The notes beneath the pieces were generated by a model that saw only the letters and a program-made list of their open reading frames with translations, did no database searches and had not been told where the DNA came from. 64,000 bases of DNA from Strigamia acuminata (lineage: Eukaryota > Arthropoda > Chilopoda > Geophilomorpha > Linotaeniidae), in the NCBI GenBank assembly GCA_949358305.1, contig OX442319.1:6880001-6944000 (forward strand), in the 5' to 3' direction. A program made the translations under genes and the position numbers. Each line of letters opens with the position of its first letter. Positions within the stretch are counted from its first letter, which is position 1. Below are positions 2,173 through 39,636 of this stretch, piece after piece.

Positions 2173-2200
2173 TCGCTCCCACCAAAAAAGAAAGACGATA
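2173..2200 (-). promoter_or_regulatory. Putative polypurine-tract region next to the nested 3' LTR
   Basis: On the minus strand the bases just before the 3' LTR read TTTTTTGGTGGGAGCGA and then TGTTGC. The GCGA immediately before the LTR is shared with BEL-A (GGCAGCGA before TGTTGC at 21241). This is where plus-strand DNA synthesis would be primed. The assignment is positional. Confidence 0.5.
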
Positions 2201-7553: not shown

Positions 7554-7564
7554 CCACGGCACCA
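7554..7564 (-). promoter_or_regulatory. Primer-binding site of the nested element
   Basis: On the minus strand TGGTGCCGTGG lies 12 bases inside the 5' LTR edge. Ten of its eleven bases match the TGGTGCCGTGA site of BEL-A. From memory of animal tRNA-His, whose 3' end is ...CACGGCACCA, this would pair with that tRNA; the primer identity is an inference. Confidence 0.65.
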
Positions 7565-7576
7565 CAAAAAGGGCTA

Positions 7577-15234: not shown

Positions 15235-15248
15235 GGGAGCTGAGTTTT

Positions 15249-15259
15249 TGGTGCCGTGA
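15249..15259 (+). promoter_or_regulatory. Primer-binding site of BEL-A copy 2
   Basis: TGGTGCCGTGA lies 14 bases after the LTR end, preceded by a T-run. This motif is usual for BEL elements. It is complementary to the 3' end I recall for tRNA-His (CACGGCACCA). Confidence 0.75.
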
Positions 15260-15914: not shown

Positions 15915-18900
15915 ATGGCTACAGGAGGTGGATCAAGGTCAGGATCAGGGAGAACGACGCCAACAACGGTTGAGCAACAACCGCCAGAAGAAATGGACGT
16001 GTTGGCTGGTAGATTCACGACGATTGGAATCTCCTTGGATGCGGTTTTGAGAAGGTCTTTGACCTTAAAAGACACAGGAGAGTTGGAAGCCATAGAAATG
16101 GTCGCCGATGAAAAGATCATGAAAATGATTAACGACCTGAACACTATGCAGCCAAAGCTGACAAGGGAGCAGTATTTAGGATATCTAAGGGAAATCGAAG
16201 AGTTAGAGACACCGATTTCAGTTCTTAAAAGCAGAACACAGATGTCCAAGAAGCACGTGACTCATTGGTCAGCTAACCCGGCAAATGCTTCAGCGTCAAT
16301 GACCAATACGTCCCAGGGTTCGATTTTGAACCAGACCTTGTCACAGTCGACAAGAAGGCATAATAATGCAAAGCTTCCTAAGTTGGAAATGCAGAAATTT
16401 AATGGAGATGTGACGACATTCCGTCCCTTCCTAAGCAGCTTTGACTCGGCGGTCCACAGCAACCCTGATTTATCAGAAATTGAGAAGTTGCAATACTTGC
16501 AGTCGCTGTGTACAGGAGAAGCCGCCATGCTGATCTCTGCATTCCCTTTAGTGGATGGTAATTACAATTTAGCAAGAGAAGAGTTGGTCCGTTCCTATGG
16601 GGACGATGAAGCCCAGAGAGTGGCTCTGGTCAAGTCCATAAGGGACATGAGACAGGTTGCTGAGTTGCATCCGGTCAAAGCTGTCAGGACACAATTGACC
16701 AAGGTGTCCACTGCTATCCGCTTGCTGGAACAGTTGAGCGTTCCAGTACAGACTGCTGGTCTGCTTCTGGCACCAGACGTGCTGAGAAAATTTCCACCTG
16801 CCATGGTAATGAGGTTTTACCAGCAGCAAGGAGCTAAGACCTCAAATTTAGTGACAATTTTGAATTTCTTTGCGGCTGAAGTTCAGCTCTTAGAGCAAAT
16901 GGAAGACGTCATGGGAACAGGAGGTCTCGCAACAAAGAAAGACAAGTCTGGAAGTTCCGACAAGGATAAAGATCAACGCAAGGGCACAATGTCTACATGC
17001 GCTACATCCAAAAGAGCCAAAGAGTCTTCTAGCCCAAAGCTGACCGTGGAAAGCGCAATTTGCATTTTTTGCAAAGAAGGCCATGCCAACACCTTCTGTA
17101 AAAAAGAAATGAGCGTGGCAGAGAAGTCCACCATAGCCCAACAAAACAGACTTTGCTTCAATTGCCTGCAAGAAGGACACAGAGCAATGCGATGTCAGGT
17201 TAAAACCAGCTGCAGGACTTGCGGCGGACGACATCACTCGTCCATCTGCAGGAAATTGAATGCCCAGAGTAGAGGTGGTGTAGAGAAGCCCAAGGACGTG
17301 AGTGCAAACGTCTCCTTGGCGATCTCATCAACGCTTCAGTTGATGATATTCACAGCGGAGTTAAAAACAAAGTCTGGAGGTTCGCACACGATACGTGGCA
17401 TGTTAGATCCGGGCAGCCATCGGTCCTACATTTTAAAGAGTGTAGCCGACCGGATACGGTTGAAGAGTTGTGGGTCGATCGAAGCCACCGCACAACGCCT
17501 CAATGAGGAGAAAGCTGGATCGGCGTCTTATGACGTTTATAGGATACTCCTTCAGTCTAGACACGGAGCCAGAGAGCTCAAGGTGACGGCTTTAAGTGCA
17601 AGAAGCCTACCGCATGTGTATGGGATAGCCAGCCCTGATACCATTCAGAAGGTTAAAGATTTGGGGTTCGAATTGGCTGAAGACTTACCTTCGACTGCAG
17701 GCAATGTTGATATCTTGCTTGGGGTTGATGTTTGGTGGGAAATCTGCCTTGACGGACGGAAGCGATTGGATAACCGCTTGGGTTTGGTCAATACCATTTT
17801 TGGGTGGGTGTTGTCAGGAGCCGCTGGGTCGACAGATGTCTTCTCCGAGAGCTCGCGTGACGTTTCTTGCTGCAACACCTGTGAGATTAAGACTGACCGT
17901 GACTTGGAAAAGCTTTGGAGTCTGGAGGCTGTTGGAATTACAGCAGGCGAACGCGATTCAGATTTTGTTCGAGATCGCTTTGAGAAGTCGCACAAGCGAA
18001 TGGAGGATGGTCGCTACCAGGTTTGCTTGCCCTTCAACGATAAGATTGGGGCTTTGGAGTCGAACTGGGAGTTGGCTCTGAATCAACTATCACATACGCT
18101 TAGGCGAATTGATAGTAACAGCGACCACAAGGAACGTTATAACAAAGCCATGTGGGACTACGTCAAAGAAGAGCACGCGGAAGTAGTACCTCTGGCAGAG
18201 AGATACAAGAAGACTAGCGTTTATGTTATTCCGCACCATCCAGTGATCAAGGAGGACCGGGAAACGACCAAGTTCCGTGTCGTTTTCAACGCGTCGTCGG
18301 CGAAGAAGGGGCTACCTTCGCTGAACGACTGCCTGTATCCTGGCCCCTCTTTAAATCCGGATATTGTCCCAGTTATGATCCGTTTTCGCCTTTTCTGTGT
18401 AGTGGCGATAGCAGACATTAAGCAGGCTTTCCTGCAAGTGCTGATTAATCCGGACCATTGCGATTTTTTGCGATTCCTTTGGGTTTCAGAAGAATACTTC
18501 CAAGAAGGATATTCTTGGCAGAATTTGTGGGATCATCTGGTCGTTTTAAGAATGATAGTCGTACCATTCGGGGTGAATTCGTCGCCATTCTTGTTGTGCG
18601 CTGTGATCCGCGCGCAAGGGCGATTGTATTTGGTGCTTTTCCCCAAAGAGGCAGATGCCCTAGACAAGGGCATCTACATGGACGACTTGACGTCCGGTGC
18701 CGATGGAACCAAAGAGACAGTAAAACACTGTGTCAATCTACGCAGAATCCTTGACGAGGGAAAGCTGCCTCTCGTCAAGTGGGCAACATCAAAGGCAGAG
18801 GTCTTTGACGCACTCAAAGACAAAGATTTCCACATGCGTGCAGACAAGTTTGAAGATTTAGGCATTGTCAAAATGCTGGGCATCCTTTGGAGTGTCCAAG

Positions 18901-21188
18901 ACGACACGCTTATGTTCAGGATCCCCACCGGTGTTGAGATCCCCCGGTCCAGGAGGGGCATTCTGTCATTATTGGCATCAGTCTTCGACCCCTTGGGGTT
19001 GATAGCTCCAGTCATTTTGAGGATGAAGATACTCTTGCAGAGTATGTGGGGTCACGACATCAGATGGGACGACATTATCTCAGAAGAGAACCGAGAGATA
19101 GTGGCCAAATGGTACGCCGATCTTCAGCGCCTCACCGAAGCCCGGGTGAAGCGTTGGATGGGGACGTACTCGGGCCAAGAGATGGACATTGACGTTTTTT
19201 GCGACGCAAGTCCACAGGCGTACGGGTGCGCAATCTACGTTCGAGCTGCGTCAGGCGCAACCCAACTGCTCTTGAGCAAAAGCAGAATTGCCCCCACCAC
19301 TAAGTTGACTTTACCTCGCCTTGAGTTGACAGCAACGGTTGTTGGAGTCCGGATGGTGGAGTACATCTTAGAAGATTTCTTACCGGGTTATCCGATTGGG
19401 AAGATAAGGTATTACTCGGACTCAATGGTCGCGCTCGGGTGGTTGAAGTCTAATAAGAACAGGTGGAAGCCATATGTCTCCAACAGAGTGGCAGAAGTTC
19501 TTGAGAAGTCAAGTCCGAGTCAGTGGGCATACGTCCCGACGGATCGAAATCCGGCGGACGTATTGACACGCCCATGCGAGGCAAAGAGCCTTTTGGCCAA
19601 CCGTCTCTGGTGGGACGGGCCTGGTCAGTTGGAAGACCTCGTGGACGAACCCGAAGACGTTGACCTCCCAATGGAAGAGGCAAAGAAGGAAAAGGTAGCT
19701 TTAGTTGCGTCAGATGGAGAAGCGCATATATGCGAGGTTTTCAAGCGGTTTAGCAGTTTTAATCGCCTCGTACGAGTTTTCGCATTCATGCGGCGCTGGC
19801 TTCCTTTTTCCGCCCGCGGGAGGGACCTCGAGGTTCTCGAGATAGAAGTTGCCGAGGAAAGAGTCATCCGCTTGGCTCAGGTCTTGAGTTTTCCAGACGA
19901 AAGACAAGCCGCGATGGTGAAGGAGAAGGTGGCAAAGGGCTCCATCCTGAAAAATTTCGACATATTTCTGGATGAGAGAGATTTACTACGACTAAGGAGC
20001 CGTCTAGGGAAGTCAGAGCTTCCCTTCGACGAGACGTTTCCCATCTTGTTACACCCGGATAGTTGGGTAACAAGGCTAATCATCAAGAAGGTTCACTTGC
20101 AGCTCCTGCATGGTGAGCTGAGGGAGACGTTTTATCGGTTGAGAGACAAGTATTGGATTGTAAGAGGACGCCGAACGGTCAAGGCTGTGATCCGGAGTTG
20201 CTTGGTCTGCAAACGAGAACGGTTGGACCGCAATAACCCATCCACTGGTGACCCGCCGATGGAGCGCGTCACGCCGGCAGCCCCGTTCCAGCATACAGGA
20301 ATTGACCACCTCGGTCCTCTCACAGTCAGGCATAAGGAGAAAGGAAGGAAAGTCTATATTCTATTATTTACTTGCCTAGTAACGCGAGCGATACATTTGG
20401 AAGTTTCCGAGAATCTTTCAGTGGAAAAGTTTCTTCTGGCCTTCCGTCGTTTCGGCGCAAGATTTGGGTATCCGGCGAAAGTGTTCTCCGATAACTCCAA
20501 AACTTTCGAGCGAGGAAGCCAGGAGATACAGTCGTGGGGTAAATTGCTGACCAAGGATGGGATCCGGACGTTCCTTTCGGAGAAGCGAGTGGTTTGGTCG
20601 TTCATTCCACCATTGTCACCATGGGCCGGAGGAGCCTGGGAGAGGCTTGTGCGGTCGGTGAAAGATAAATTGCGTAAGATGCTGCTGCGCAGGACCGTAG
20701 ATTTGGAGACGCTACAGACGCTAGCCGCCGAGATAGGTTCCGTGCTTAACTCAAGGCCACTGTCCTACGTGCATGAGGAGGTTGACGGCGGGAGAATTCT
20801 CAGCCCTGAGAATTTCCTCACTGGAGGAATGCCCAAGTGGGTAATCAACCGTCCGCTGCACGCGATACAGAAAAAAGACCTACGGCGATTGGATAGAAAG
20901 AGACGACTTTTCATTTGGGAGTTCTGGCGGATTTGGCGCGAGAGTTACCTGAAACAACTAAGAAATTTTCATGAAGTTAAGGGCGACTCACGTTTCAAGA
21001 ATCCGGAGGTCAACCAGATAGTATTGCTGGAAAAGGTCGGCTGCAATCCGTACTTCTGGCCGCTGGCACGGGTCATCGAGGTCCTACCCGGCGAAGATGG
21101 GTTTGTGCGCGTCGTGAGAGTAGTTACAGCCAATGGAAAGGAATACCGCCGCTCGGTCAAACACGTGAGGGCCTTGGAGCTGGATTAG
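15915..21188 (+). CDS. gag-pol: BEL/Pao Gag-Pol polyprotein
   Basis: A single ORF of 1757 codons starts at ATG 15915 (MATGGG); the open frame extends a further 12 codons upstream but only from TTG. In order: a helical N-terminus; DUF1759-type Gag (about residues 150-330); CCHC-like zinc knuckles ending CRTCGGRHHSSIC (about 382-446); an aspartic protease with LDPGSHRS (about 495); RT (about 775-990) with the YMDDL active site near 921; RNase H (about 1090-1230) with FCDAS, RLELTA, SDSMVAL and NPAD; integrase with its zinc region (about 1393-1440) and D, D, E near 1463, 1524 and 1574; and a C-terminal DUF5641-like domain (about 1680-1757). Products would form the particle, mature it, copy the RNA and integrate the cDNA. 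No frameshift separates gag from pol, as in many BEL elements. All key residues are present, so the gene looks functional. Confidence 0.97.
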   Translation: MATGGGSRSGSGRTTPTTVEQQPPEEMDVLAGRFTTIGISLDAVLRRSLTLKDTGELEAIEMVADEKIMKMINDLNTMQPKLTREQYLGYLREIEELETPISVLKSRTQMSKKHVTHWSANPANASASMTNTSQGSILNQTLSQSTRRHNNAKLPKLEMQKFNGDVTTFRPFLSSFDSAVHSNPDLSEIEKLQYLQSLCTGEAAMLISAFPLVDGNYNLAREELVRSYGDDEAQRVALVKSIRDMRQVAELHPVKAVRTQLTKVSTAIRLLEQLSVPVQTAGLLLAPDVLRKFPPAMVMRFYQQQGAKTSNLVTILNFFAAEVQLLEQMEDVMGTGGLATKKDKSGSSDKDKDQRKGTMSTCATSKRAKESSSPKLTVESAICIFCKEGHANTFCKKEMSVAEKSTIAQQNRLCFNCLQEGHRAMRCQVKTSCRTCGGRHHSSICRKLNAQSRGGVEKPKDVSANVSLAISSTLQLMIFTAELKTKSGGSHTIRGMLDPGSHRSYILKSVADRIRLKSCGSIEATAQRLNEEKAGSASYDVYRILLQSRHGARELKVTALSARSLPHVYGIASPDTIQKVKDLGFELAEDLPSTAGNVDILLGVDVWWEICLDGRKRLDNRLGLVNTIFGWVLSGAAGSTDVFSESSRDVSCCNTCEIKTDRDLEKLWSLEAVGITAGERDSDFVRDRFEKSHKRMEDGRYQVCLPFNDKIGALESNWELALNQLSHTLRRIDSNSDHKERYNKAMWDYVKEEHAEVVPLAERYKKTSVYVIPHHPVIKEDRETTKFRVVFNASSAKKGLPSLNDCLYPGPSLNPDIVPVMIRFRLFCVVAIADIKQAFLQVLINPDHCDFLRFLWVSEEYFQEGYSWQNLWDHLVVLRMIVVPFGVNSSPFLLCAVIRAQGRLYLVLFPKEADALDKGIYMDDLTSGADGTKETVKHCVNLRRILDEGKLPLVKWATSKAEVFDALKDKDFHMRADKFEDLGIVKMLGILWSVQDDTLMFRIPTGVEIPRSRRGILSLLASVFDPLGLIAPVILRMKILLQSMWGHDIRWDDIISEENREIVAKWYADLQRLTEARVKRWMGTYSGQEMDIDVFCDASPQAYGCAIYVRAASGATQLLLSKSRIAPTTKLTLPRLELTATVVGVRMVEYILEDFLPGYPIGKIRYYSDSMVALGWLKSNKNRWKPYVSNRVAEVLEKSSPSQWAYVPTDRNPADVLTRPCEAKSLLANRLWWDGPGQLEDLVDEPEDVDLPMEEAKKEKVALVASDGEAHICEVFKRFSSFNRLVRVFAFMRRWLPFSARGRDLEVLEIEVAEERVIRLAQVLSFPDERQAAMVKEKVAKGSILKNFDIFLDERDLLRLRSRLGKSELPFDETFPILLHPDSWVTRLIIKKVHLQLLHGELRETFYRLRDKYWIVRGRRTVKAVIRSCLVCKRERLDRNNPSTGDPPMERVTPAAPFQHTGIDHLGPLTVRHKEKGRKVYILLFTCLVTRAIHLEVSENLSVEKFLLAFRRFGARFGYPAKVFSDNSKTFERGSQEIQSWGKLLTKDGIRTFLSEKRVVWSFIPPLSPWAGGAWERLVRSVKDKLRKMLLRRTVDLETLQTLAAEIGSVLNSRPLSYVHEEVDGGRILSPENFLTGGMPKWVINRPLHAIQKKDLRRLDRKRRLFIWEFWRIWRESYLKQLRNFHEVKGDSRFKNPEVNQIVLLEKVGCNPYFWPLARVIEVLPGEDGFVRVVRVVTANGKEYRRSVKHVRALELD

Positions 21189-21240
21189 CGTGGTCGATTT
21201 GTTTGAGCCGGCTGTCTGCTTCTTTTTCGGCTGGCAGCGA
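21189..21240 (+). promoter_or_regulatory. Region before the 3' LTR of BEL-A copy 2 (polypurine-tract position)
   Basis: Fifty-two bases from the stop codon to the LTR end in TTTTTCGGCTGGCAGCGA. This is pyrimidine-rich rather than a classic purine tract, but it is conserved in copy 1 and resembles the equivalent position in the thymidine-kinase elements. Confidence 0.5.
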
Positions 21241-22794
21241 TGTTGCGAGCAAGAACGCAACAAAAAGATCTGGAGATTTCACGTTGTTTATCTTCTGAAA
21301 GGAAGAAAAGGCTTTTTTAATTTTGTTGTCAAGTTTGAATAGATTTTTAACACATATCTGACATGTCCAGTTGGTTTGCTGCTTTGTTGACACGATCCTG
21401 GAAGTTCAAGGGGGTTGCCACTTCGCCTGCCACACCTGGAATGTTTGAAAGTTGTGTTTTTAGTCTTTTGTAATTGTTTTATGTGTCTTTTTCACTTTTA
21501 GGTGTTGTTTCTAGTATTTGTAAGTTCTCTCCCGTTTCCAGTTCACTTGCGAGGGAGATAGTCGTGCACCGGCAAGATGGCCGCCATAGCGCAAGTGAAC
21601 TGGGAGACGGGAAGAACCTGAAATAAGCACAATTGCAGTTTTAGTGCTTGTTTTGCTTGTGATTTAATTTATACTAACTTGTATTGGTGTTTAAGGAACT
21701 CCCCAGGTGTCCTGGGTCGCTGGATGAACGTTGGACATCGTTTGTGAGCGTTCGGGAGCGTCGGGCGTGAGCGCACGCCTTGCGACGCCTCTCGTGGTCG
21801 TGTGGGTCCTGCAAATGAGTTGAATTGGTCGGGTTTCAATGTCCAAGCACTGGGAAAGTTGTACTGACCGTTCTAGGACGCAGATCCATCGTTGAGAAGG
21901 CCTGTGAGTCGCTTGCGACCTTGTTTGGCTCCATTCACGTCATTTTAGCAGTTGCATGGTCGCCATCTTGGATTTGGTGCTGCACTGGTGCCCTGTTATT
22001 ATTTAGTTTGGGGTTTTAATGAAACCTGGACATAGGGAATATATACTAGTTATTGTTTGTATAAATTACCAATATTAAGAGTTATTAATCTAAGCCTTTA
22101 CCTTTGTTATTGCATGGTTGTAAAGGGGTTAAAACTGTGACACGTTGCGCCCTCTGTTGGTGGTGATTGGGTTTGGGCTAAGCATTGTGTTTTGAGTGTA
22201 ATTAATGTTAGTTTTAGCCTTTGAATTATCTGTTAAGTTTAAGTGAAGTGCTGTTTGCACAGGTCATAATGTTATCAAGGTGTTAGGTTAAGTTTTGCCT
22301 TTACTTATGTTAAGTTTGACATCTGTTGTAGGAATACGGAAACCTTGTTGGCACTATTGTTATTATGCAAATCTGTATTGTTTGGTCACTGATATTTATT
22401 GTAAGCAGGTGACCAGTTGTTGTGTGGTTGCTAAAGAAGCAATCAGTTGTTACTTGTTGTTAAGATTAAAAAGTTGATGTGTTTTCACTCCTGCTTTGAA
22501 CATTCTTTTCTGATCTTATTTCCTACTCAGGGAAATATGCAAATGAGTGAGTAGAAAGCTTTGCATGCTCTCCTCCTCACTGGAGGCACAAGGTTTTCCC
22601 CAGTATCCAGAGAGCTTCCTTTATCATTTTCAACTGAATGCAGTTAGGCCTGATTTCTCATGATGCAGTTAGGCCTAGAGTTTGGGCTGAGAGGTCAACT
22701 TGTTTCATCAACCACTATACAGTCTCGGGCGGTCTCCAGAGTTTACAGACCAATTCGCCAGTATTCCTTGTGAGAGCCAAGGTTGTTTGCTACA
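21241..22794 (+). repeat. 3' LTR of BEL-A copy 2
   Basis: This has the same 1554 bp as the 5' LTR, offset by 7560, with no difference noticed by eye. It is followed by the ACAA target duplication and then satellite. The stem-loop lies at 21530-21612. Confidence 0.95.
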
Positions 22795-23486
22795 ACAAGA
22801 CCAATGTCTCTGAATGTTCAGAAATAGTGTTTAAACCTTAGTAGAAGGCTCCAATGTAAGTTTTAGAAACATCCAACCAATGATTTGGGAGAATAGACTT
22901 TTGATCTCATCACAGTTGACTTAGCACAAACACCACAAGACCAATGTCTCTGAATGTTCAGAAATAGTGTTTAAACCTTAGTAGAAGGCTCCAATGTAAG
23001 TTTTAGAAACATCCAATTGATGATTTAGGAGAATAGACTTTTGATCTCATCACAGTTGACTTAGCACAAACACCACAAGACCAATGTCTCTGAATGTTCA
23101 GAAATAGTGTTTAAACCTTAGTAGAAGGCTCCAATGTAAGTTTTATAACATTTAACCGATGATTTGGGAGAATAGACTTTTGATCTCATCACAGTTGACT
23201 TAGCACAAACACCACAAGACCAATGTCTCTGAATGTTCAGAAATAGTGTTTAAACCTTAGTAGAAGGCTCCAATGTAAGTTTTAGAAACATTCAACCGAT
23301 GATTTGGGAGAATAGACTTTTGATCTCATCACAGTTGACTTAGCACAAACACCACAAGACCAATGTCTCTGAATGTTCAGAAATAGTGTTTAAACCTTAG
23401 TAGAAGGCTCCAATGTAAGTTTTAGAAACATCCAACCAATGATTTGGGAGAATAGACTTTTGATCTCATCACAGTTGACTTAGCAC
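22795..23486 (+). repeat. 140-bp satellite, about five monomers
   Basis: Forward monomers in the order CCAACCAATG, CCAATTGATG, TTATAACATT (139 bp), TTCAACCGATG, CCAACCAATG. This order recurs at 31.7-32.3 kb, so the array continues through the inserted elements. The last bases, GCAC (23483-23486), are the left target duplication of TK-A. An apparent minus ORF (23422-23655) only reads from the LTR into the satellite. Confidence 0.95.
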
Positions 23487-24843
23487 TGTTTCTGGCAAGG
23501 TCGCAGGCGACAACCAGGCCAGAAGGAGGGGCGGCAATACTTGACTGCTGCTTGGCACAAATTGATACACAGAAGTTGGCCAAAGACTTGAAGAAATGCA
23601 AACACTGGACTTGCACTTGCTGCTTCACATGATGATCTGCCACTGGTGAGTTCAAGGAGGAGGAAGGAGGATTTTTCTACTCACTGCACATTGCTTTCTG
23701 GTTGTATAGAGAAATGAGACTTGGAGAGAAATAAAAAGCAACCATTTTATTCTCTAAATTCTTAACAACACTACTACAATTGAATCACGAGGATTTTACA
23801 AAGAAGTCACACTTTAACAATAATAAGAAACAACAAGTGTAACTATCTCCACATTGTATAAGGACACTTGCACTTAAAGTTACAGAGGTCTCTAAGTGCT
23901 TGTAAAGAGAAATAAGTACTGCTGGCACAACAAAACTACCGTAGAAGTTAATAGTTGAAAACACATAAGCCGAACAGCAAGTATTTGGCATTAAATGCAA
24001 AAGTATACATTAACAACAGTCTCTAAACACAATGCTCATTGAGAACTAAATTATTCACTCTAAAACACACTGAACAACTCATAAAATAGAGAAAAGAATA
24101 AGTAAAGACATTTTAGACCAATGAGCTGGCAACTTTACAGTAAGTGCAGAAGTTAAGTTATAAATCAACACAGATAAATCTCAAACTTAACACTTTTACA
24201 TTGCATAATAATTAAGTGATTAATTATTAATCAGAACCCACAAAAACTCTTTGGGATTAAACATTATCTCCTCTCTTTACAGATACAAGTAGACCACTCC
24301 CACAGTAATGGCCGACAATGTAAACAAAGATCACTTGCAGGAGGATAAAAAGGCTTGAAATTAGCTCACTAGACAGGCTACACACAATCTAAGTTAACAA
24401 AACGCTTAATTGGTTAGTAATATACAGAAAACTCACAGAAATTGATTGAAACAGCTTAAAACTGATAATAACATACATTTCTCATTCTAGTACACTTTTG
24501 CTGTCTGAAAGCATCACTACACCTTGTCACTACATTGACAGTAGTGGACTGGAAACAGGAAAACACTTGGAAACATCAAAACATGTATAACACAGGTAAA
24601 CAAGATAGAAAATAAATTCTAAGTGGAAAAATAACTAATGTAAAACTCTTTTCTTCCCAGATTTATCCGGTCAGATCAACCAGTACTGAGAAATTCACTC
24701 AAACTAACTCAAAGAAGACTTATATTCAGATAAGTGCCTAATTAAATTCCCAATCTAAGATAAATATTAAAAACCCTTTTTAATAATTCCAGATGACTAA
24801 TTTTTAAGACGTTTAGCAACTTTCCTTTATGTTGCTAGCAACA
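23487..24843 (-). repeat. 3' LTR of TK-A
   Basis: This 1357-bp LTR starts on the element's strand with the perfect 14-bp palindrome TGTTGCTAGCAACA and ends GCCAGAAACA. A minus-strand AATAAA lies at 23746-23751 and may be the polyadenylation signal. Near 24543 the minus strand reads TCCTGTTTCCAGTCCACT, which matches the left arm of the BEL-A LTR stem-loop. Confidence 0.95.
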
Positions 24844-24878
24844 TAGATTGCCGGCGAAAAGAAAGTGCGAACAACCCA
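24844..24878 (-). promoter_or_regulatory. Pre-LTR motif of TK-A (polypurine-tract position)
   Basis: On the minus strand, between the stop codon and the LTR, it reads CTTTCTTTTCGCCGGCAATC then TA and the LTR. The counterpart at 60580-60606, TTTTCGGCGGCAATCTC, and that of BEL-A, TTTTCGGCTGGCAGCGA, show one shared signal across three families. Confidence 0.55.
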
Positions 24879-27800
24879 TCATTTAGTTTGATTACTTCTG
24901 GTCTTTGATGATAATATTTGGGAGACCTCTTTCACCTTTTTGTATTTCACTCTGGATGGCAAGATTCTTTGACGGATCAAATATGGTATCCACGGAGGTA
25001 TTCTTCGGTTGACAATCATACAACTAAGTCGAATAATTCCGTTGATGATTTTCCTTTTTGTCTCTACTGACTCCATGGGCTTTGAGAAACATACTCGACA
25101 GGTTGGTTTGTATTTGTCGATCCCTCCTATCACCTTGACTCTGGTTTCGTGCGAAATTCGTCTTGAAAATTCAGCTTTATCTCCGCAAAAATAACATTTT
25201 GCTTGTAGTTTCACAACAGACTCGGCTAGTGGAACTAACTTGGATATCTGATCAAATGGCTTCCTCTTGAAATCGACGTCTAATGCGGCGACTATTACCT
25301 TTTTCTTTTGCTCAGCCATTTCATTTGAAAAAGTAAAAATGTCGGGAAAAAACTGTCCTTCATCAATTCCGATTGTCTTCATTAATTTCGTTTTTTCCAC
25401 AGCATTGATTAGGTTACTGGTCGCGATTGCTTCTCGTCGATGACCATCGTGGGTCACGACTTCGGATTTACTGTAACGTTCGTCATTGGAGTGCTTAATG
25501 AGCAAGGACGACGTCTTCTCTTCTTTTTCTAAGATCTTCAATAACTTGGTCGTTTTCCCGGCATACATTGGACCAAGGATAAGGTGAATTCCTCTTTGAT
25601 TGTTCGATAAGACATTTTTCTTTTTCCAGAAATTGAAAATCAATTCTCCGGTCCATCTCAAGATTGCACACAATTTGGGTAAACTGGGCACTTGGTTTGC
25701 TTTCTTTCTCAGTGACTCCGACTGATTTCGCCCTCGTAATTCCGGCTTCATGTCCGAGCTTGGAGTTCTGTTGGCCAATCCTCCATCCTTGAACGACTTT
25801 TTCGTTTTTTGGAGGGTGGTGTCCAGTTCCTCTTTCTCCAGACCACTGGAGAGGCTCGCGGCAAAACAAGAAGGTGTGACGTCTGTCTGTTTATTCACAC
25901 CGGGTTCGCCATTCATGTCGGACGGTGATTTCGGAATTAATTGGACTATTTTGTTTTCGTCATTTTCAGGTTGATTTGAGATCACTTCTTCTTTGGACTC
26001 GACCGCCATGCAAGAAATGTTGCATGCTGCCATGTTTTCTTCAAGCGGGTTGTTTGGTTTCAGTCGACCGTTTAGAATCCACCCAAAAATTGTCTGCATT
26101 AATCCCAACTCGTCGTTGATTTTTCGGCTTCCACCTTGACAAATCTTCCACCATGCGTTGCTTCCTAATAAGACGTCAATGTCTTCCGATTCTGACGGAT
26201 GTATCTCAGCCATCTCAAGTCCGAGTGATTGGACCTGCTTTATGGCTTCTGCTCCAATTATCCCTTTGACTTTCGGGAGCGTGTCGGTTTCTAATGCAAG
26301 GATTGATGTCTTTTCCGTTCCGTGTCTTGATTGCAGTTCGAATCTAAAGACATCATGTGTCGTCGGAACTGGCTTTTTGTTGAGCAGACACTGTGTCATC
26401 GTGTGTAGTGTCTCGATCTTTTGCATCCGGAATTTATTTACTAGTCTCTTCGTGACGTAGGAGCGATGGCTTCCTGGATCTAGTAATCCGCGGACGGGGT
26501 ACATGTCTCCATTTTTCTTCACAAAAAGAGCAGTGAAGACCATCAGTTGAATCTCCACCGACTCGGTAAGCGATACATTAGTAGACACGTTTTCTTCTTT
26601 TGGTGTAATCGCTTTTTCTTTGTTGTTTTTGTTGCAGATCGATGTGTGATGTCTTCCACCACACAAGCGACAACAAAACTTCACGGTACATTCTTTGGCT
26701 GTGTGGTTATATCTCAAGCAGTTGAAACAAAGTCGTTTCTTCTTCACTATTTCGATCCTCGCTGGTACATCGAGATCCGCATCACAATTTGCGTGTGCGT
26801 GATCACCATCACAATAAGCGCAGGCGGGTTTGCGGTTTGGATTTGACTTGGAATTCATACTCAATTTTCCATTCTCGGAAGTCACGAATGAGGACATGGT
26901 TCCAGTTGGTCTTTCTCTTGTTTCCTTTGAAGTTTTCTCAAATTTTTCTGACTTCTTCAGATGAGCGCGCTTAAGGAGAACGCTTTCTTCCGACAATTCA
27001 GCCAGTTGTATCTCGGTTGCTACGAAGTCCAGAAAAACGTTAACATCATCAACTTTTCCTTGATGCTTTCGGTAAAAACGTTGGGAGATCTCCGGTGGAA
27101 ATTTTCTAAGTAGTTCTGGAATAAGGTACGTTCCAGTAGTGTCAACTGACACAGACAGTTGCGCCATGGTCCGGACAGCAGATGCCAATGACGTGAATAG
27201 AGCTTTAAGTGGCTCGATTGGGTAGAGATCGAAAACGGGTTTCGACTCCCTAATCATCTTTGAAATCGCATTTCTCTGCGTGTTTTCAGATCCGAATAGA
27301 CTCTCCAATGTATTTTTCGCTAATGGGTAGGCGTCATCAGTTATTGGGTACGACTTGATTGCGGATTCTGCAGCCCCAGTGCAGCATGACCTCAGATATA
27401 TAAGCTTTTCCACGTTCGAAAGCTCCGTGTTCTGATCAACTGCTGATTCGAATAAATTCGCAAAGCCTCTATATTCAGTTGCATCGCCACTAAATTTGGC
27501 AATGTCGGTTTTCGGCAATCTCGTGTTTCTCCTAGATGAAGCGGACGTCTGGTTTAAACTGGAATTCTGTCCCGGATGGGAACCAAATTGCCCTGCCGTT
27601 TTTCCAGACACTTTGGCTCTTTGTTTCAATAAATTAACTCTGGTTCTAATGTCTTCAATTCGTTGAAGCCCTGCTAAATAGTCCTCTCTTTTTGACTCGT
27701 CTTTAAGAGCTTTCAATTCGTCGGCGAGATCACTCAATTGCTGGTCAACCGTTATTTGCATGGCTTCCAGCTCTCCTCCGTCTAGAATGTTGACTGAAGA

Positions 27801-27884
27801 TCCCAGCAGATCCTCGGCTCCTTGAGCCTTTGCTTTCCAAATGACCTCCTTTTCCTCGAGATCAGCAGCGGATAATGTAGCCAT
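24879..27884 (-). CDS. Gag-aspartic protease-thymidine kinase fusion polyprotein (TK-A)
   Basis: The 1001-codon ORF starts at the ATG at 27884 (MATLSAADLEEK); three upstream codons begin only at GTG. In order: a helical N-terminus; DUF1759-type Gag (about 125-310), similar to but clearly diverged from BEL-A; zinc knuckles (about 352-415) ending CRLCGGRHHTSIC; a protease with LDPGSHRS (about 470); a charged ~120-residue linker; and a TK1-type thymidine kinase (about 765-955). The kinase has the P-loop GPMYAGKTT, DERYS, THDGHRREA, IGIDEGQFFPDI, VIVAALDVDFKRKPF, LVPLAESVVKL, and paired CYFC and CRVC zinc cysteines around VIGGIDKYKPTC. A ~50-residue tail contains NRRIPPW. TK1 enzymes phosphorylate thymidine to dTMP with ATP. 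Here the kinase occupies the place of Pol. All expected catalytic motifs are present; activity is inferred. Confidence 0.93.
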   Translation of the reverse strand: MATLSAADLEEKEVIWKAKAQGAEDLLGSSVNILDGGELEAMQITVDQQLSDLADELKALKDESKREDYLAGLQRIEDIRTRVNLLKQRAKVSGKTAGQFGSHPGQNSSLNQTSASSRRNTRLPKTDIAKFSGDATEYRGFANLFESAVDQNTELSNVEKLIYLRSCCTGAAESAIKSYPITDDAYPLAKNTLESLFGSENTQRNAISKMIRESKPVFDLYPIEPLKALFTSLASAVRTMAQLSVSVDTTGTYLIPELLRKFPPEISQRFYRKHQGKVDDVNVFLDFVATEIQLAELSEESVLLKRAHLKKSEKFEKTSKETRERPTGTMSSFVTSENGKLSMNSKSNPNRKPACAYCDGDHAHANCDADLDVPARIEIVKKKRLCFNCLRYNHTAKECTVKFCCRLCGGRHHTSICNKNNKEKAITPKEENVSTNVSLTESVEIQLMVFTALFVKKNGDMYPVRGLLDPGSHRSYVTKRLVNKFRMQKIETLHTMTQCLLNKKPVPTTHDVFRFELQSRHGTEKTSILALETDTLPKVKGIIGAEAIKQVQSLGLEMAEIHPSESEDIDVLLGSNAWWKICQGGSRKINDELGLMQTIFGWILNGRLKPNNPLEENMAACNISCMAVESKEEVISNQPENDENKIVQLIPKSPSDMNGEPGVNKQTDVTPSCFAASLSSGLEKEELDTTLQKTKKSFKDGGLANRTPSSDMKPELRGRNQSESLRKKANQVPSLPKLCAILRWTGELIFNFWKKKNVLSNNQRGIHLILGPMYAGKTTKLLKILEKEEKTSSLLIKHSNDERYSKSEVVTHDGHRREAIATSNLINAVEKTKLMKTIGIDEGQFFPDIFTFSNEMAEQKKKVIVAALDVDFKRKPFDQISKLVPLAESVVKLQAKCYFCGDKAEFSRRISHETRVKVIGGIDKYKPTCRVCFSKPMESVETKRKIINGIIRLSCMIVNRRIPPWIPYLIRQRILPSRVKYKKVKEVSQILSSKTRSNQTK

Positions 27885-28705
27885 AATCCTCACCGAGAAA
27901 TGAAGAATTCAAGGATCAGTTCAGGATTCAAACTCAACTTAACTGACTAAATTGGTTAACAAGAATTTGTCTAATTCTTTTACACTCTAGGATTTACTGA
28001 ACACACAAAAACAGGATGGATATCCACAAGCTGTTAACAGGATTGAAACACACGAGATGTTAAAAGGATTGGCAAATTAACCCCCAAAATTCAATAATTA
28101 AAGGTAATTGACAATTCTCTTATTTTCACAATTGAGTTTCTGACTAGATACTCGTTTTAAATTGGGATACCAACACTAAAGCTTGGTATTATTCACTAAT
28201 TCACTGGATATTCTCTAAATTCCACAAACTGGAATCGAGAATTTATTCAAACTGTTAAGACTTAAACTTCTTCTCCCCCCAACTACACCAGTTTCTAATC
28301 AAAAACTCTTTTTGAAATAATTACAGCAGCAAATTCGGATATTATTCTATTTAAATAATAATTCTTAATAATTATTTCTTCAAATCTTCTTGTAGGATGT
28401 ACATTGCGTTGTGTTTGGGTTTGATTGTCGTGCAGGATCGCTCGTACTCTCGAAGCTTTGCTTGATCCAAGTTGAAAAACCTCTTGACCATCTTGACAAT
28501 TTGAGAATCCAACTTGAAAAACCCACTTTTTTGCCTGTGAAAGGCGGACGAGAGCATACACTTCACTGTAGTGGCACAGCTTCAATGGCACTTTACACAT
28601 AAAAGCTTTGCACAGCTTGAGAACAAAACCTACTGATGAATTTTGCAGCACACATGAAGGTCCACTGAGATAACTGGAAGAAATCCTTGGTTCACGGTAC
28701 CAAAT
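27885..28705 (-). other. Untranslated leader of TK-A
   Basis: Between the primer-binding site and the ATG lie about 820 AT-rich bases without a convincing gene. The minus frame at 28295-28789 crosses from the LTR and starts inside it, so it is unlikely to be translated as a protein of its own. The leader probably carries packaging signals, as in BEL-A. Confidence 0.6.
28692..28702 (-). promoter_or_regulatory. Primer-binding site of TK-A
   Basis: On the minus strand TGGTACCGTGA lies three bases after the 5' LTR end. It differs from the BEL-A site TGGTGCCGTGA by one base (G to A at the fifth base) and is much closer to the LTR. All full TK copies share the change. Confidence 0.7.
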
Positions 28706-30062
28706 TGTTTCTGGCAAGGTCGCAGGCGACAACCAGGCCAGAAGGAGGGGCGGCAATACTTGACTGCTGCTTGGCACAAATTGATACACAGAAGTTGGCC
28801 AAAGACTTGAAGAAATGCAAACACTGGACTTGCACTTGCTGCTTCACATGATGATCTGCCACTGGTGAGTTCAAGGAGGAGGAAGGAGGATTTTTCTACT
28901 CACTGCACATTGCTTTCTGGTTGTATAGAGAAATGAGACTTGGAGAGAAATAAAAAGCAACCATTTTATTCTCTAAATTCTTAACAACACTACTACAATT
29001 GAATCACGAGGATTTTACAAAGAAGTCACACTTTAACAATAATAAGAAACAACAAGTGTAACTATCTCCACATTGTATAAGGACACTTGCACTTAAAGTT
29101 ACAGAGGTCTCTAAGTGCTTGTAAAGAGAAATAAGTACTGCTGGCACAACAAAACTACCGTAGAAGTTAATAGTTGAAAACACATAAGCCGAACAGCAAG
29201 TATTTGGCATTAAATGCAAAAGTATACATTAACAACAGTCTCTAAACACAATGCTCATTGAGAACTAAATTATTCACTCTAAAACACACTGAACAACTCA
29301 TAAAATAGAGAAAAGAATAAGTAAAGACATTTTAGACCAATGAGCTGGCAACTTTACAGTAAGTGCAGAAGTTAAGTTATAAATCAACACAGATAAATCT
29401 CAAACTTAACACTTTTACATTGCATAATAATTAAGTGATTAATTATTAATCAGAACCCACAAAAACTCTTTGGGATTAAACATTATCTCCTCTCTTTACA
29501 GATACAAGTAGACCACTCCCACAGTAATGGCCGACAATGTAAACAAAGATCACTTGCAGGAGGATAAAAAGGCTTGAAATTAGCTCACTAGACAGGCTAC
29601 ACACAATCTAAGTTAACAAAACGCTTAATTGGTTAGTAATATACAGAAAACTCACAGAAATTGATTGAAACAGCTTAAAACTGATAATAACATACATTTC
29701 TCATTCTAGTACACTTTTGCTGTCTGAAAGCATCACTACACCTTGTCACTACATTGACAGTAGTGGACTGGAAACAGGAAAACACTTGGAAACATCAAAA
29801 CATGTATAACACAGGTAAACAAGATAGAAAATAAATTCTAAGTGGAAAAATAACTAATGTAAAACTCTTTTCTTCCCAGATTTATCCGGTCAGATCAACC
29901 AGTACTGAGAAATTCACTCAAACTAACTCAAAGAAGACTTATATTCAGATAAGTGCCTAATTAAATTCCCAATCTAAGATAAATATTAAAAACCCTTTTT
30001 AATAATTCCAGATGACTAATTTTTAAGACGTTTAGCAACTTTCCTTTATGTTGCTAGCAACA
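28706..30062 (-). repeat. 5' LTR of TK-A
   Basis: This 1357-bp copy corresponds to 23487-24843 with an offset of 5219 and no difference noticed by eye. It abuts the GCAC duplication and satellite at 30063. Confidence 0.95.
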
Positions 30063-33000
30063 GCACAAACACCACAAGACCAATGTCTCTGAATGTTCAG
30101 AAATAGTGTTTAAACCTTAGTAGAAGGCTCCAATGTAAGTTTTAGAAACATTTAACCGATGATTTGGGAGAATAGACTTTTGATCTCATCACAGTTGACT
30201 TAGCACAAACACCACAAGGCCAATGTCTCTGAATGTTCAGAAATAGTGTTTAAACCTTAGTAGAAGGCTCCAATGTAAGTTTTAGAAACATTCAACCGAT
30301 GATTTGGGAGAATAGACTTTTGATCTCATCATAGTTGACTTAGCACAAACACCATAAGACCAATGTCTCTGAATGTTCAGAAATAGTGTTTAAACCTTAG
30401 TAGAAGGCTCCAATGTAAGTTTTAGAAACATCCAACCGATGATTTGGGAGAATAGACTTTTGATCTCATCACAGTTGACTTAGCACAAACACCACAAGAC
30501 TAATGTCTCTGAATGTTCAGAAATAGTGTTTAAACCTTAGTAGAAGCCTTCAATGTAAGTTTTAGAAACATCCAACTGATGATTTGGGAGAATAGACTTT
30601 TGATCTCATCACAGTTGACTTAGCACAAACACCACAAGACTAATGTCTCTGAATGTTCAGAAATAGTGTTTAAACCTTAGTAGAAGCCTTCAATGTAAGT
30701 TTTAGCAACATCCAAGCAATGATTTGGGAGAATAGACTTTTGATCTCATCACAGTTACTTAGCACAAACACCACAAGTCCAATGTCTCTGTATGTTCAGA
30801 AATAGTGTTTAAACCTTAGTAGAAGCCTTCAATATAAGTTTTAGCAACACCCAAGCATTAAATTTTGAAGAAAAAAATTTTGAGCTCATTTCACATCGCA
30901 GTTGACTTAGCACAAACACCACAAGACCAATGTCTCTGAATGTTCAGAAATAGTGTTTAAACCTTAGTAGAAGCCTTCAATCTAAGTTTTAGCAACACCC
31001 AAGCAATAAATTTTGAAAAAAAAATTTTGAGCTCATTTCACATCGCAGTTGACTTAGCACAAACACCACAAGTCCAATGTCTCTGAATGTTCAGAAATAG
31101 TGTTTAAACCTTAGTAGAAGGCTCCAATGTAAGTTTTAGAAACATCCAACCGATGATTTGGGAGAATAGACTTTTGATCTCATCACAGTTGACTTAGCAC
31201 AAACACCACAAGACCAATGTCTCTGAATGTTCAGAAATAGTGTTTAAACCTTAGTAGAAGGCTCCAATGTAAGTTTTAGAAACATTTAACCGATGATTTG
31301 GGAGAATAGACTTTTGATCTCATCACAGTTGACTTAGCACAAACACCACAAGACCAATGTCTCTGAATGTTCAGAAATAGTGTTTAAACCTTAGTAGAAG
31401 GCTCCAATGTAAGTTTTAGAAACATCCAACCAATGATTTGGGAGAATAGACTTTTGATCTCATCACAGTTGACTTAGCACAAACACCACAAGACCAATGT
31501 CTCTGAATGTTCAGAAATAGTGTTTAAACCTTAGTAGAAGGCTCCAATGTAAGTTTTAGAAACATTTAACCGATGATTTGGGAGAATAGACTTTTGATCT
31601 CATCACAGTTGACTTAGCACAAACACCACAAGACCAATGTCTCTGAATGTTCAGAAATAGTGTTTAAACCTTAGTAGAAGGCTCCAATGTAAGTTTTAGA
31701 AACATCCAACCAATGATTTGGGAGAATAGACTTTTGATCTCATCACAGTTGACTTAGCACAAACACCACAAGACCAATGTCTCTGAATGTTCAGAAATAG
31801 TGTTTAAACCTTAGTAGAAGGCTCCAATGTAAGTTTTAGAAACATCCAATTGATGATTTAGGAGAATAGACTTTTGATCTCATCACAGTTGACTTAGCAC
31901 AAACACCACAAGACCAATGTCTCTGAATGTTCAGAAATAGTGTTTAAACCTTAGTAGAAGGCTCCAATGTAAGTTTTATAACATTTAACCGATGATTTGG
32001 GAGAATAGACTTTTGATCTCATCACAGTTGACTTAGCACAAACACCACAAGACCAATGTCTCTGAATGTTCAGAAATAGTGTTTAAACCTTAGTAGAAGG
32101 CTCCAATGTAAGTTTTAGAAACATTCAACCGATGATTTGGGAGAATAGACTTTTGATCTCATCACAGTTGACTTAGCACAAACACCACAAGACCAATGTC
32201 TCTGAATGTTCAGAAATAGTGTTTAAACCTTAGTAGAAGGCTCCAATGTAAGTTTTAGAAACATCCAACCAATGATTTGGGAGAATAGACTTTTGATCTC
32301 ATCACAGTTGACTTAGCACAAACACCACAAGACCAATGTCTCTGAATGTTCAGAAATAGTGTTTAAACCTTAGTAGAAGGCTCCAATGTAAGTTTTAGAA
32401 ACATTTAACCGATGATTTGGGAGAATAGACTTTTGATCTCATCACAGTTGACTTAGCACAAACACCACAAGGCCAATGTCTCTGAATGTTCAGAAATAGT
32501 GTTTAAACCTTAGTAGAAGGCTCCAATGTAAGTTTTAGAAACATTCAACCGATGATTTGGGAGAATAGACTTTTGATCTCATCATAGTTGACTTAGCACA
32601 AACACCATAAGACCAATGTCTCTGAATGTTCAGAAATAGTGTTTAAACCTTAGTAGAAGGCTCCAATGTAAGTTTTAGAAACATCCAACCGATGATTTGG
32701 GAGAATAGACTTTTGATCTCATCACAGTTGACTTAGCACAAACACCACAAGACTAATGTCTCTGAATGTTCAGAAATAGTGTTTAAACCTTAGTAGAAGC
32801 CTTCAATGTAAGTTTTAGCAACATCCAAGCAATGATTTGGGAGAATAGACTTTTGATCTCATCACAGTTACTTAGCACAAACACCACAAGTCCAATGTCT
32901 CTGTATGTTCAGAAATAGTGTTTAAACCTTAGTAGAAGCCTTCAATATAAGTTTTAGCAACACCCAAGCATTAAATTTTGAAGAAAAAAATTTTGAGCTC

Positions 33001-36000
33001 ATTTCACATTGCAGTTGACTTAGCACAAACACCACAAGACCAATGTCTCTGAATGTTCAGAAATAGTGTTTAAACCTTAGTAGAAGCCTTCAATCTAAGT
33101 TTTAGCAACACCCAAGCAATAAATTTTGAAAAAAAAATTTTGAGCTCATTTCACATCGCAGTTGACTTAGCACAAACACCACAAGACCAATGTCTCTGAA
33201 TGTTCAGAAATAGTGTTTAAACCTTAGTAGAAGCCTTCAATCTAAGTTTTAGCAACACCCAAGCAATAAATTTTGAAAAAAAAATTTTGAGCTCATTTCA
33301 CATCGCAGTTGACTTAGCACAAACACCACAAGTCCAATGTCTCTGAATGTTCAGAAATAGTGTTTAAACCTTAGTAGAAGGCTCCAATGTAAGTTTTAGA
33401 AACATCCAACCGATGATTTGGGAGAATAGACTTTTGATCTCATCACAGTTGACTTAGCACAAACACCACAAGACCAATGTCTCTGAATGTTCAGAAATAG
33501 TGTTTAAACCTTAGTAGAAGGCTCCAATGTAAGTTTTAGAAACATTTAACCGATGATTTGGGAGAATAGACTTTTGATCTCATCACAGTTGACTTAGCAC
33601 AAACACCACAAGACCAATGTCTCTGAATGTTCAGAAATAGTGTTTAAACCTTAGTAGAAGGCTCCAATGTAAGTTTTAGAAACATCCAACCGATGATTTG
33701 GGAGAATAGACTTTTGATCTCATCACAGTTGACTTAGCACAAACACCACAAGACCAATGTCTCTGAATGTTCAGAAATAGTGTTTAAACCTTAGTAGAAG
33801 GCTCCAATGTAAGTTTTAGAAACATTTAACCGATGATTTGGGAGAATAGACTTTTGATCTCATCACAGTTGACTTAGCACAAACACCACAAGACCAATGT
33901 CTCTGAATGTTCAGAAATAGTGTTTAAACCTTAGTAGAAGGCTCCAATGTAAGTTTTAGAAACATCCAATTGATGATTTGGGAGAATAGACTTTTGATCT
34001 CATCACAGTTGACTTAGCACAAACACCACAAGACCAATGTCTCTGAATGTTCAGAAATAGTGTTTAAACCTTAGTAGAAGGCTCCAATGTAAGTTTTATA
34101 ACATTTAACCGATGATTTGGGAGAATAGACTTTTGATCTCATCACAGTTGACTTAGCACAAACACCACAAGACCAATGTCTCTGAATGTTCAGAAATAGT
34201 GTTTAAACCTTAGTAGAAGGCTCCAATGTAAGTTTTAGAAACATTCAACCGATGATTTGGGAGAATAGACTTTTGATCTCATCACAGTTGACTTAGCACA
34301 AACACCACAAGACCAATGTCTCTGAATGTTCAGAAATAGTGTTTAAACCTTAGTAGAAGGCTCCAATGTAAGTTTTAGAAACATCCAACCAATGATTTGG
34401 AAGAATAGACTTTTGATCTCATCACAGTTGACTTAGCACAAACACCACAAGACCAATGTCTCTGAATGTTCAGAAATAGTGTTTAAACCTTAGTAGAAGG
34501 CTCCAATGTAAGTTTTAGAAACATTTAACCGATGATTTGGGAGAATAGACTTTTGATCTCATCACAGTTGACTTAGCACAAACACCACAAGGCCAATGTC
34601 TCTGAATGTTCAGAAATAGTGTTTAAACCTTAGTAGAAGGCTCCAATGTAAGTTTTAGAAACATTCAACCGATGATTTGGGAGAATAGACTTTTGATCTC
34701 ATCATAGTTGACTTAGCACAAACACCATAAGACCAATGTCTCTGAATGTTCAGAAATAGTGTTTAAACCTTAGTAGAAGGCTCCAATGTAAGTTTTAGAA
34801 ACATCCAACCGATGATTTGGGAGAATAGACTTTTGATCTCATCACAGTTGACTTAGCACAAACACCACAAGACTAATGTCTCTGAATGTTCAGAAATAGT
34901 GTTTAAACCTTAGTAGAAGCCTTCAATGTAAGTTTTAGCAACATCCAAGCAATGATTTGGGAGAATAGACTTTTGATCTCATCACAGTTACTTAGCACAA
35001 ACACCACAAGTCCAATGTCTCTGTATGTTCAGAAATAGTGTTTAAACCTTAGTAGAAGCCTTCAATATAAGTTTTAGCAACACCCAAGCATTAAATTTTG
35101 AAGAAAAAAATTTTGAGCTCATTTCACATCGCAGTTGACTTAGCACAAACACCACAAGACCAATGTCTCTGAATGTTCAGAAATAGTGTTTAAACCTTAG
35201 TAGAAGCCTTCAATCTAAGTTTTAGCAACACCCAAGCAATAAATTTTGAAAAAAAAATTTTGAGCTCATTTCACATCGCAGTTGACTTAGCACAAACACC
35301 ACAAGTCCAATGTCTCTGAATGTTCAGAAATAGTGTTTAAACCTTAGTAGAAGGCTCCAATGTAAGTTTTAGAAACATCCAACCGATGATTTGGGAGAAT
35401 AGACTTTTGATCTCATCACAGTTGACTTAGCACAAACACCACAAGACCAATGTCTCTGAATGTTCAGAAATAGTGTTTAAACCTTAGTAGAAGGCTCCAA
35501 TGTAAGTTTTAGAAACATTTAACCGATGATTTGGGAGAATAGACTTTTGATCTCATCACAGTTGACTTAGCACAAACACCACAAGACCAATGTCTCTGAA
35601 TGTTCAGAAATAGTGTTTAAACCTTAGTAGAAGGCTCCAATGTAAGTTTTAGAAACATCCAACCAATGATTTGGGAGAATAGACTTTTGATCTCATCACA
35701 GTTGACTTAGCACAAACACCACAAGACCAATGTCTCTGAATGTTCAGAAATAGTGTTTAAACCTTAGTAGAAGGCTCCAATGTAAGTTTTAGAAACATTT
35801 AACCGATGATTTGGGAGAATAGACTTTTGATCTCATCACAGTTGACTTAGCACAAACACCACAAGACCAATGTCTCTGAATGTTCAGAAATAGTGTTTAA
35901 ACCTTAGTAGAAGGCTCCAATGTAAGTTTTAGAAACATCCAACCAATGATTTGGGAGAATAGACTTTTGATCTCATCACAGTTGACTTAGCACAAACACC

Positions 36001-39601: not shown

Positions 39602-39636
39602 TAGATTGCCGGCGAAAAGAAAGTGCGAACAACCCA

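Follow-up and report, generated by a model that had tools for sequence, protein, structure and literature searches.

How can a retroelement without a polymerase of its own multiply in a genome, and what would it gain from a thymidine kinase (TK) in its place? This question is raised by an element flanked by long terminal repeats (LTRs) at positions 23487-30062 of a 64,000-nucleotide window of contig OX442319.1 (the window is the whole stretch of DNA analysed here; all coordinates refer to it, and the element reads on its minus strand). The initial annotation described the element as an LTR retrotransposon in which one open reading frame (ORF) joins a BEL-type Gag, zinc knuckles and an LDPGS protease to a complete TK1-type kinase that replaces Pol, between apparently identical LTRs with a 4-bp target duplication. 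On balance, we favour the reading of a non-autonomous BEL/Pao element with a TK1-type kinase in frame at the place of Pol, which would be mobilised in trans by an autonomous BEL element and whose kinase would make thymidine monophosphate (dTMP) for cDNA synthesis.

Architecture of the element and identity of its kinase

The 5' LTR (28706-30062, minus strand, 1357 bp, TGTTGCTAGCAACA...GCCAGAAACA) and the 3' LTR (23487-24843, minus strand) match at 1357 of 1357 bases (100%). As expected for BEL/Pao, TG...CA LTR ends and a short target duplication are both present, the latter reading GCAC on the plus strand (left copy 23483-23486, right copy 30063-30066). A putative primer-binding site, TGGTACCGTGA (28692-28702, minus strand), lies 3 bases past the 5' LTR in the untranslated leader of 821 bp (27885-28705, minus strand). 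It is followed by the single ORF of 1001 codons plus stop (24879-27884, minus strand), which encodes Gag, a protease-like region, a linker, the TK and a tail. The frame itself is open for 1009 codons (24879-27908) with its first ATG at 27884, and the stop is placed 35 bases ahead of the 3' LTR. The motif CTTTTCGCCGGCAATCT directly before the 3' LTR (24844-24867, minus strand) is likely the plus-strand priming region; it is nearly the same in a second, diverged subfamily of such elements (subfamily B, the element itself belonging to subfamily A) and similar in the autonomous BEL element of the window.

By Pfam, the Gag core corresponds to the BEL-type domain DUF1759 (PF03564; 27069-27494, minus strand, residues 139-280 of 1009) with E-values of 2e-17 in subfamily A and 4.8e-15 in subfamily B. 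Three zinc-knuckle-like motifs (26631-26825, minus strand, ends approximate) were seen in the sequence and aligned with the autonomous BEL element, and alignment to the same element places an aspartic-protease-like region with LLDPGS at 26049-26546 (minus strand, ends approximate). Altogether, residues 34-630 share 38% identity with the ORF of 1769 amino acids (aa) of the autonomous BEL element, and the alignment stops about where Pol would start. The DUF1758 profile was not matched in the subfamily-A ORF by Pfam at E<=0.1, and in subfamily B it reached 16.8 bits, which is under the 22-bit cut-off. Hence, the protease of the initial annotation rests on the 38% identity to the autonomous Gag and protease and on the LDPGS motif, while the single ORF, the Gag, the knuckles, the LTRs and the duplication were all found as described.

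The replacement of Pol is likewise borne out. No reverse transcriptase (RT), RNase H, Pao peptidase domain or integrase was found in the element by Pfam, and a six-frame tblastn search with BEL Pol returned best E-values of 0.9 in A and 4.9 in B, while the positive control, locus L010, gave a match of 810 residues. A Pol relic or a Pol in another frame is thereby ruled out. Since full members have RT, RNase H, Pao peptidase and integrase, the element is a non-autonomous derivative of BEL/Pao.

After a linker of approximately 140 residues, the TK domain (25086-25589, minus strand, residues 774-941 of 1009) matches PF00265 over profile positions 3-176 of 176 (1.2e-53, 182 bits, cut-off 20.6). 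It contains the P-loop GPMYAGKTT, IDEGQFF, four zinc cysteines and the lasso VIGGIDKY. The PDB entry 2wvj (4.8e-42) ranks among the top four of 18 relatives with a solved structure, and these best matches we take to be human TK1. Over 172-174 residues, the identity to the 2wvj sequence amounts to 46.5-48.3% in A and 43.7-44.8% in B. In the alignment with human TK1, the GPM..GKTT P-loop, IDEGQFF, both CxxC pairs and the GG..[KR]Y lasso, presumably the functional hallmarks of TK1, are retained in both subfamilies; with the full-length profile match above the curated cut-off, they uphold the earlier TK1 assignment. While these motifs are the same as in the cellular enzyme, the element kinase differs from it by the fusion to Gag and protease, by an altered ALDG motif and by an extra C-terminal tail (24882-25085, minus strand, 68 residues). 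About the first 40 residues of this tail can be aligned between A and B, reaching past the end of TK-only proteins, and the motif KRK[IL]ING..[RH]LS..I.NRR.PPW...LIR occurs in both subfamilies but not in TK-only proteins. The linker has a basic/hydrophobic stretch ahead of the TK; these two features perhaps serve membrane or Gag contact. An AlphaFold model built from a 3-row alignment had a pLDDT of 31 and was discarded.

TK1 is an oligomer, and the TK fold might serve another role than dTMP synthesis; it could, for example, form a tetrameric scaffold between Gag proteins or sense nucleotides. The fusion to Gag in one frame, the altered ALDG in both subfamilies and the alignable extra tail would suit such a role. 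However, the P-loop, IDEGQFF, the zinc cysteines and the lasso are all retained in A and B, which goes beyond the needs of a scaffold, and we regard this explanation as unlikely.

Regarding the origin of the kinase, the TKs of A and B form one group with 100% bootstrap in an unrooted tree of 14 sequences, which fits a single capture before the A/B split. Viral contigs were also scanned with six TKs of the genome and gave 11 loci with 30-35% identity to the subfamily-A TK, compared with 48% for human TK1. Four of these loci entered the tree, three without the trimming motif were left out, and the other four consisted of two partial ones at a contig end and two whose match values equal those of locus L040. 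No close viral TK source was thus found among the scanned viral contigs, and the 14-sequence tree is too small to settle the origin.

Copies, recent mobility and selection

The genome searched comprises 237.5 Mb in 157 contigs, and in each search only the best candidates were scored. A genome-wide copy count, as suggested with the initial annotation, was done with the Gag of the element; the best 90 of 1261 candidates were scored, and 80 of them sit in a full-length frame. These 80 frames at separate places rule out that an assembly join between gag-pro and kinase, a possibility already raised in the initial annotation, or separate adjoining genes produced the fusion. Subfamily A accounts for 54 of the scored matches (identity >=85%; 47 with a frame of 1009 or 1013 aa) and subfamily B for 36 (58% identity; 33 with a frame of 995 or 1002 aa). 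Because the longest frame has 1013 aa, a fusion of this Gag lineage to Pol is absent from the best 90 of the 1261 candidates. The ORFs of A and B are 51.6% identical across 996 aligned columns and have the same layout. The TK profile (PF00265) was searched as well, and the best 150 of 205 candidates that were scored were all above the cut-off. In the window itself, a second subfamily-A copy is found at 38244-44833 (minus strand; LTRs of 1358 bp, 100% identical, target duplication, ORF of 1013 aa), a third one at 62447-64000 (minus strand) is cut by the window end, and a subfamily-B fragment with linker and TK at 59512-60513 (plus strand) has an open frame of 333 aa.

Twelve loci were inspected for LTR pairs; they were hand-picked from the TK profile list to cover the frame classes and are not a random sample. 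In all seven complete copies compared, the LTRs are 100% identical (1357-1358 bp in A; 715, 956 and 965 bp in B), and six of the seven are flanked by matching 4-bp duplications, all of them different (GTGC, CAAC, TCAC, ACAG, GTCC and TTTG in element orientation). The other five loci were left out of this count: L031 is truncated at the end of its locus, with 1211 LTR bases identical, L011 contains two copies next to each other, and L010, L021 and L027 either yielded no LTR pair or have broken frames. With identical LTRs in seven of seven complete copies, the family corresponds to a non-autonomous LTR element without pol that has recent copies. Having multiplied recently, it numbers at least 80 copies whose frame is full-length.

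Arrays of a 140-bp satellite lie beside the elements in the window (30062-38243, 44831-59456 and 61567-62430), and 11 insertions were mapped against it. Clean satellite junctions were obtained for five of them, on both sides for w24, w39, L012 and the autonomous BEL element and on one side for L031. All five fall at unit positions 93-116, i.e. within 24 bases, w39 and L031 at the same position. The autonomous BEL element of the window thus sits in the unit segment that four TK elements also use, a point in favour of the helper role considered below. Five other insertions lie outside the satellite (L009, L029, L030, L032 and an LTR element at 424-9325, the last nested in a BEL pol); hence, the clusters contain satellite only in part. 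One could suppose that the copies were made by local amplification, with arrays expanding together with the insertions inside them, instead of by retrotransposition. The copies are indeed clustered, two of them share a satellite junction, and L032 is without matching duplications. This explanation is nevertheless highly improbable, because it is contradicted for the tested copies by the matching and mutually different duplications of six of the seven, and because the window interleaves A copies, a B fragment, autonomous BEL elements and a noncoding LTR element.

Selection on the ORF was analyzed with nine copies of A and B as the ratio of nonsynonymous to synonymous substitution rates (dN/dS). 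Between w24 and w39, which represent two groups of A, the TK differs by 15 synonymous and 11 nonsynonymous changes (dN/dS 0.19); given 111.7 synonymous and 404.3 other sites, the P value for at least 15 synonymous changes among 26 is 7e-5. Elsewhere in the ORF the same pair gave values of 0.07 (Gag and protease), 0.59 (linker) and 0.44 (tail). The six between-group pairs of A, which are not independent of each other, ranged from 0.14 to 0.19 for the TK and from 0.44 to 1.11 for the tail, hence the C-terminal tail is weakly constrained. The within-group pair w39-L029 has 4 synonymous and 2 nonsynonymous TK changes (dN/dS 0.14), and the TK of subfamily B gave 0.04-0.17 in five of six pairs, the sixth pair differing by one nonsynonymous change. 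Between A and B, the synonymous sites are saturated in Gag and protease as well as in the TK. The differences between w24 and w39 are concentrated at element positions 4200-4800 (26 and 19 per 300 bp versus 0-9 in the rest), a pattern suggestive of copy-choice recombination or of a fast-evolving linker. The TK of subfamily A is under purifying selection, and this supports a function for the kinase.

These values also bear on the idea that, after a single chance capture, the TK has been carried along as a passenger because Gag, protease and cis signals suffice for mobilisation. Plant LTR elements have been reported to hold captured gene sequences (PMC7264820), LTR elements without pol are described as mobile (PMC8704663), and in one group of A none of the few TK changes is synonymous. 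However, the TK dN/dS of 0.14-0.19 between the groups of A and the conservation of the kinase across the A/B split speak against a passenger, so that this idea, weakened by the selection test, appears quite improbable.

A candidate helper and a proposed role in dTMP supply

The autonomous BEL element of the window (13681-22794, plus strand; identical LTRs of 1554 bp, duplication ACAA) has an ORF of 1769 aa (15879-21188, plus strand) with a Pao peptidase, an integrase zinc domain and an RT-like region (RVT_1 20.1 bits, cut-off 29.6), and it represents the proposed helper family. The family was searched with the region past the Pao peptidase domain, including the integrase; of 3862 candidates the best 74 were scored, 48 of them in frames of 1768-1770 aa. 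BEL elements were also searched with the Pao peptidase profile (best 150 of 1068 candidates scored); 110 of these 150 are in frames of 1737-1816 aa, and they are spread along the chromosomes. The territory of the TK elements was defined as their clusters plus 200 kb, corresponding to 12.5 Mb on large contigs and eleven small contigs. It contains 63 of the 74 scored helper-family copies versus 3 of the 150 best-scoring Pao-profile BEL elements, and on C1-C13 alone 53 of 60 versus 2 of 145 other BEL elements (Fisher P 1e-38). Because the territory was drawn from the TK places, all of which it contains by definition, and the 150 BEL elements are those with the highest profile scores, this is a contrast between BEL families and not one against chance.

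Target preference is usually set by the integrase. A TK element without integrase that shares its territory with this BEL family points to the family as helper, and the helper is likely the autonomous BEL family of 13681-22794. The initial annotation left the movement of an element lacking RT and integrase unexplained; a helper BEL element is its most likely means. Moreover, the LTR start TGTTKCNAGCAA is common to the TK element and the autonomous BEL element, and the primer-site core TGGTRCCGTGA is common to A, B and the autonomous BEL element. The LTR element at 424-9325, with identical LTRs of 1749 bp, the 4-bp duplication CTTT, a similar LTR start and the TGGTGCCGTG site, is noncoding in that no BEL or TK-element coding match was found inside it; together with its identical LTRs this indicates that trans-mobilisation occurs in this genome, and recently.

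In the favoured mechanism, LTR-driven RNA would be translated into a Gag-protease-TK polyprotein from the single observed frame, and such a one-frame polyprotein in the manner of BEL would yield the kinase at the level of Gag. Particles would form with the Gag-Pol of the helper, on the assumption that both Gag proteins co-assemble, and RT and integrase would be supplied in trans by the family of 13681-22794. The kinase may then convert thymidine to dTMP and raise the thymidine triphosphate (dTTP) level for cDNA synthesis, either in the producing cell or in the particle. The former is the simpler version, because a TK inside the particle would depend on thymidine, ATP and further kinases as well. 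The two suggestions of the initial annotation, a raised dTTP level for reverse transcription and packaging of the kinase, are plausible, and the element would probably provide reverse transcription with dTMP. This supply would matter in a host seemingly without its own TK1, and a benefit to the helper would follow, making the pair mutualistic.

Several observations weigh against this reading. The TK1 motif ALDG is changed to ALDV in A and to ALNG in B, and pairs among w24, L031 and L032 have no synonymous but 1-4 nonsynonymous TK changes. Copy L032 is without a matching duplication (TCTA/CCTT), and broken copies exist (two in L021, an in-frame stop in L027, and 10 of the 90 scored matches without a full frame). 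The sample for the satellite phase consists of five insertions, two of them at an identical unit position, and one of six satellite junctions, that of w62, is not clean, with 16 other bases between array and LTR. With respect to the helper, its Gag is just 38% identical to that of the TK element, and the primer-site core lies 3 (A) and 4 (B) but 15 (autonomous BEL) bases past the LTR. Finally, the shared territory could reflect poor removal of insertions, though other BEL elements do not show such clustering.

The initial annotation had proposed an advantage in cells where host TK1 is low, a wording that may be too weak, because the genome has dNK-type genes (PF01712, 7 matches, in pieces) and motif searches found no single-copy TK1. 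The degenerate pattern GPMF[S/T]GK[S/T]TE had 0 matches, with no positive control in the genome. The IDEGQFF pattern occurs at 174 places, of which 100 were listed, and an intron within the motifs could hide a gene. By eye, three of the listed places are outside five repeat families: L037 is a false match, and L035 and L036 are single degraded TK copies, with stops and lesions, related to B and A, respectively; the latter two represent older relatives outside the present territories. In insects, dNK is described as the only thymidine kinase (PMC10652518). The genome contains 54 matches to an arthropod-type cuticle domain; nematode cuticle collagen gave 0 matches, as did its controls, and SL1 was not found in the genome.

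Five multi-copy TK lineages occur in the genome in all, three of them outside BEL and uninterrupted. It might therefore be argued that the host, an arthropod lacking TK1, benefits from the kinase through thymidine salvage, and that the element persists partly thereby. The three lineages outside BEL and the missing single-copy TK1 in the motif searches would agree with this, but the BEL-TK copies keep their TK fused in frame to Gag and not free, and they are situated in few clusters, partly in satellite arrays, where expression is doubtful. We judge service to the host improbable. The favoured dTMP supply for reverse transcription can be extended, tentatively, to a helper-dependent element that is confined to a small number of satellite-containing clusters, has given up its polymerase in exchange for a nucleotide enzyme and feeds its own and its helper's reverse transcription, in a host where repeats are the only source of TK1-type kinases.

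Among the lineages outside BEL, one family (L022, L023, L024, L033 and L034) has an uninterrupted TK of 190 aa at at least 40 places, counted by eye, in long repeats in which no other conserved ORF was noticed; three compared copies show 2-5 differences in the 570 bases of the ORF and 0-28 in 350 bases of the 5' flanks. The second family (L015-L020, L025 and L026; frames of 216-269 aa) sits in its own long repeat and the third (L013, L014 and L028; frames of 221-239 aa) in a different one. Pfam searches with nine ORFs around these TK-only families found nothing above the cut-offs except for one in L023 (1184-3949), a Copia-type ORF with a methyl-CpG-binding domain (PF01429, 6.5e-11) alongside RVT_2.

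Relation to known elements and biological meaning

With autonomous BEL/Pao elements such as that at 13681-22794, the TK element shares the LTR ends, the primer-site core, the 4-bp duplication, the one-frame strategy, the DUF1759 Gag, the zinc knuckles and the LDPGS region, whereas RT, RNase H and integrase are lacking and a TK1-type kinase is present instead. In acute transforming retroviruses of the gag-onc type, a captured cellular-type gene is fused to Gag in the place of Pol, and the virus depends on a helper. The TK element resembles them in these respects, but its cargo is a metabolic enzyme, and it is genomic, with two diverged subfamilies and a high copy number. The dUTPase belongs to the thymidylate pathway, and the retroviral enzyme stands beside a working Pol; it is comparable to the TK in being element-encoded and in its pathway, but differs as an enzyme and in its position next to Pol. 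Element-encoded retroviral dUTPase is documented in PMC4531489.

Other comparisons come from eukaryotic LTR elements. Those of bdelloid rotifers carry a dUTPase and an enzymatic ORF3 (PMC5408684), and thus resemble the TK element in having captured a nucleotide-metabolism or other enzyme, but they encode pol; the words thymidine and kinase are absent from the main text of that report. The plant TR-GAG elements are LTR elements with gag only (PMC8704663) and are likewise non-autonomous and mobile with an intact Gag, whereas the TK element belongs to an animal BEL lineage, has kept a protease-like region and carries an enzyme under purifying selection. The Anakin elements of mosquitoes are BEL-Pao elements with a chuvirus glycoprotein, 13 of which were reported with all domains (PMC7642597). 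They are also an arthropod BEL-Pao lineage with a captured foreign gene, but their cargo is an envelope-like protein, whereas in the TK element Pol is gone and the cargo enzyme is fused to Gag and protease. From these sources, Gag-only LTR elements and retroelement dUTPases are hence already known, as is the capture of enzymes by LTR elements of rotifers and of an envelope-like gene by BEL-Pao elements. In the literature covered on TK or nucleoside kinases with retroelements, no TK-bearing LTR element and no TK in the place of Pol was found.

So far, dUTPase has been the familiar nucleotide-metabolism enzyme of retroelements. A TK that is kept in two subfamilies while Pol is lost suggests that dTTP supply, and not the polymerase alone, can be selected in retroelements. 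The reverse is argued for Teratorn, a transposon-herpesvirus fusion, whose TK and dUTPase are considered dispensable once endogenized (PMC5601938). If true, the dTTP-supply reading would describe a mutualism between retroelements, in which one brings the polymerase and the other the substrate. The TK element makes the limitation of retrotransposition by deoxynucleotides testable and offers a natural case of labour division between elements. Furthermore, it bears on the arrival of a TK1-type enzyme in a lineage that may have lost TK1.

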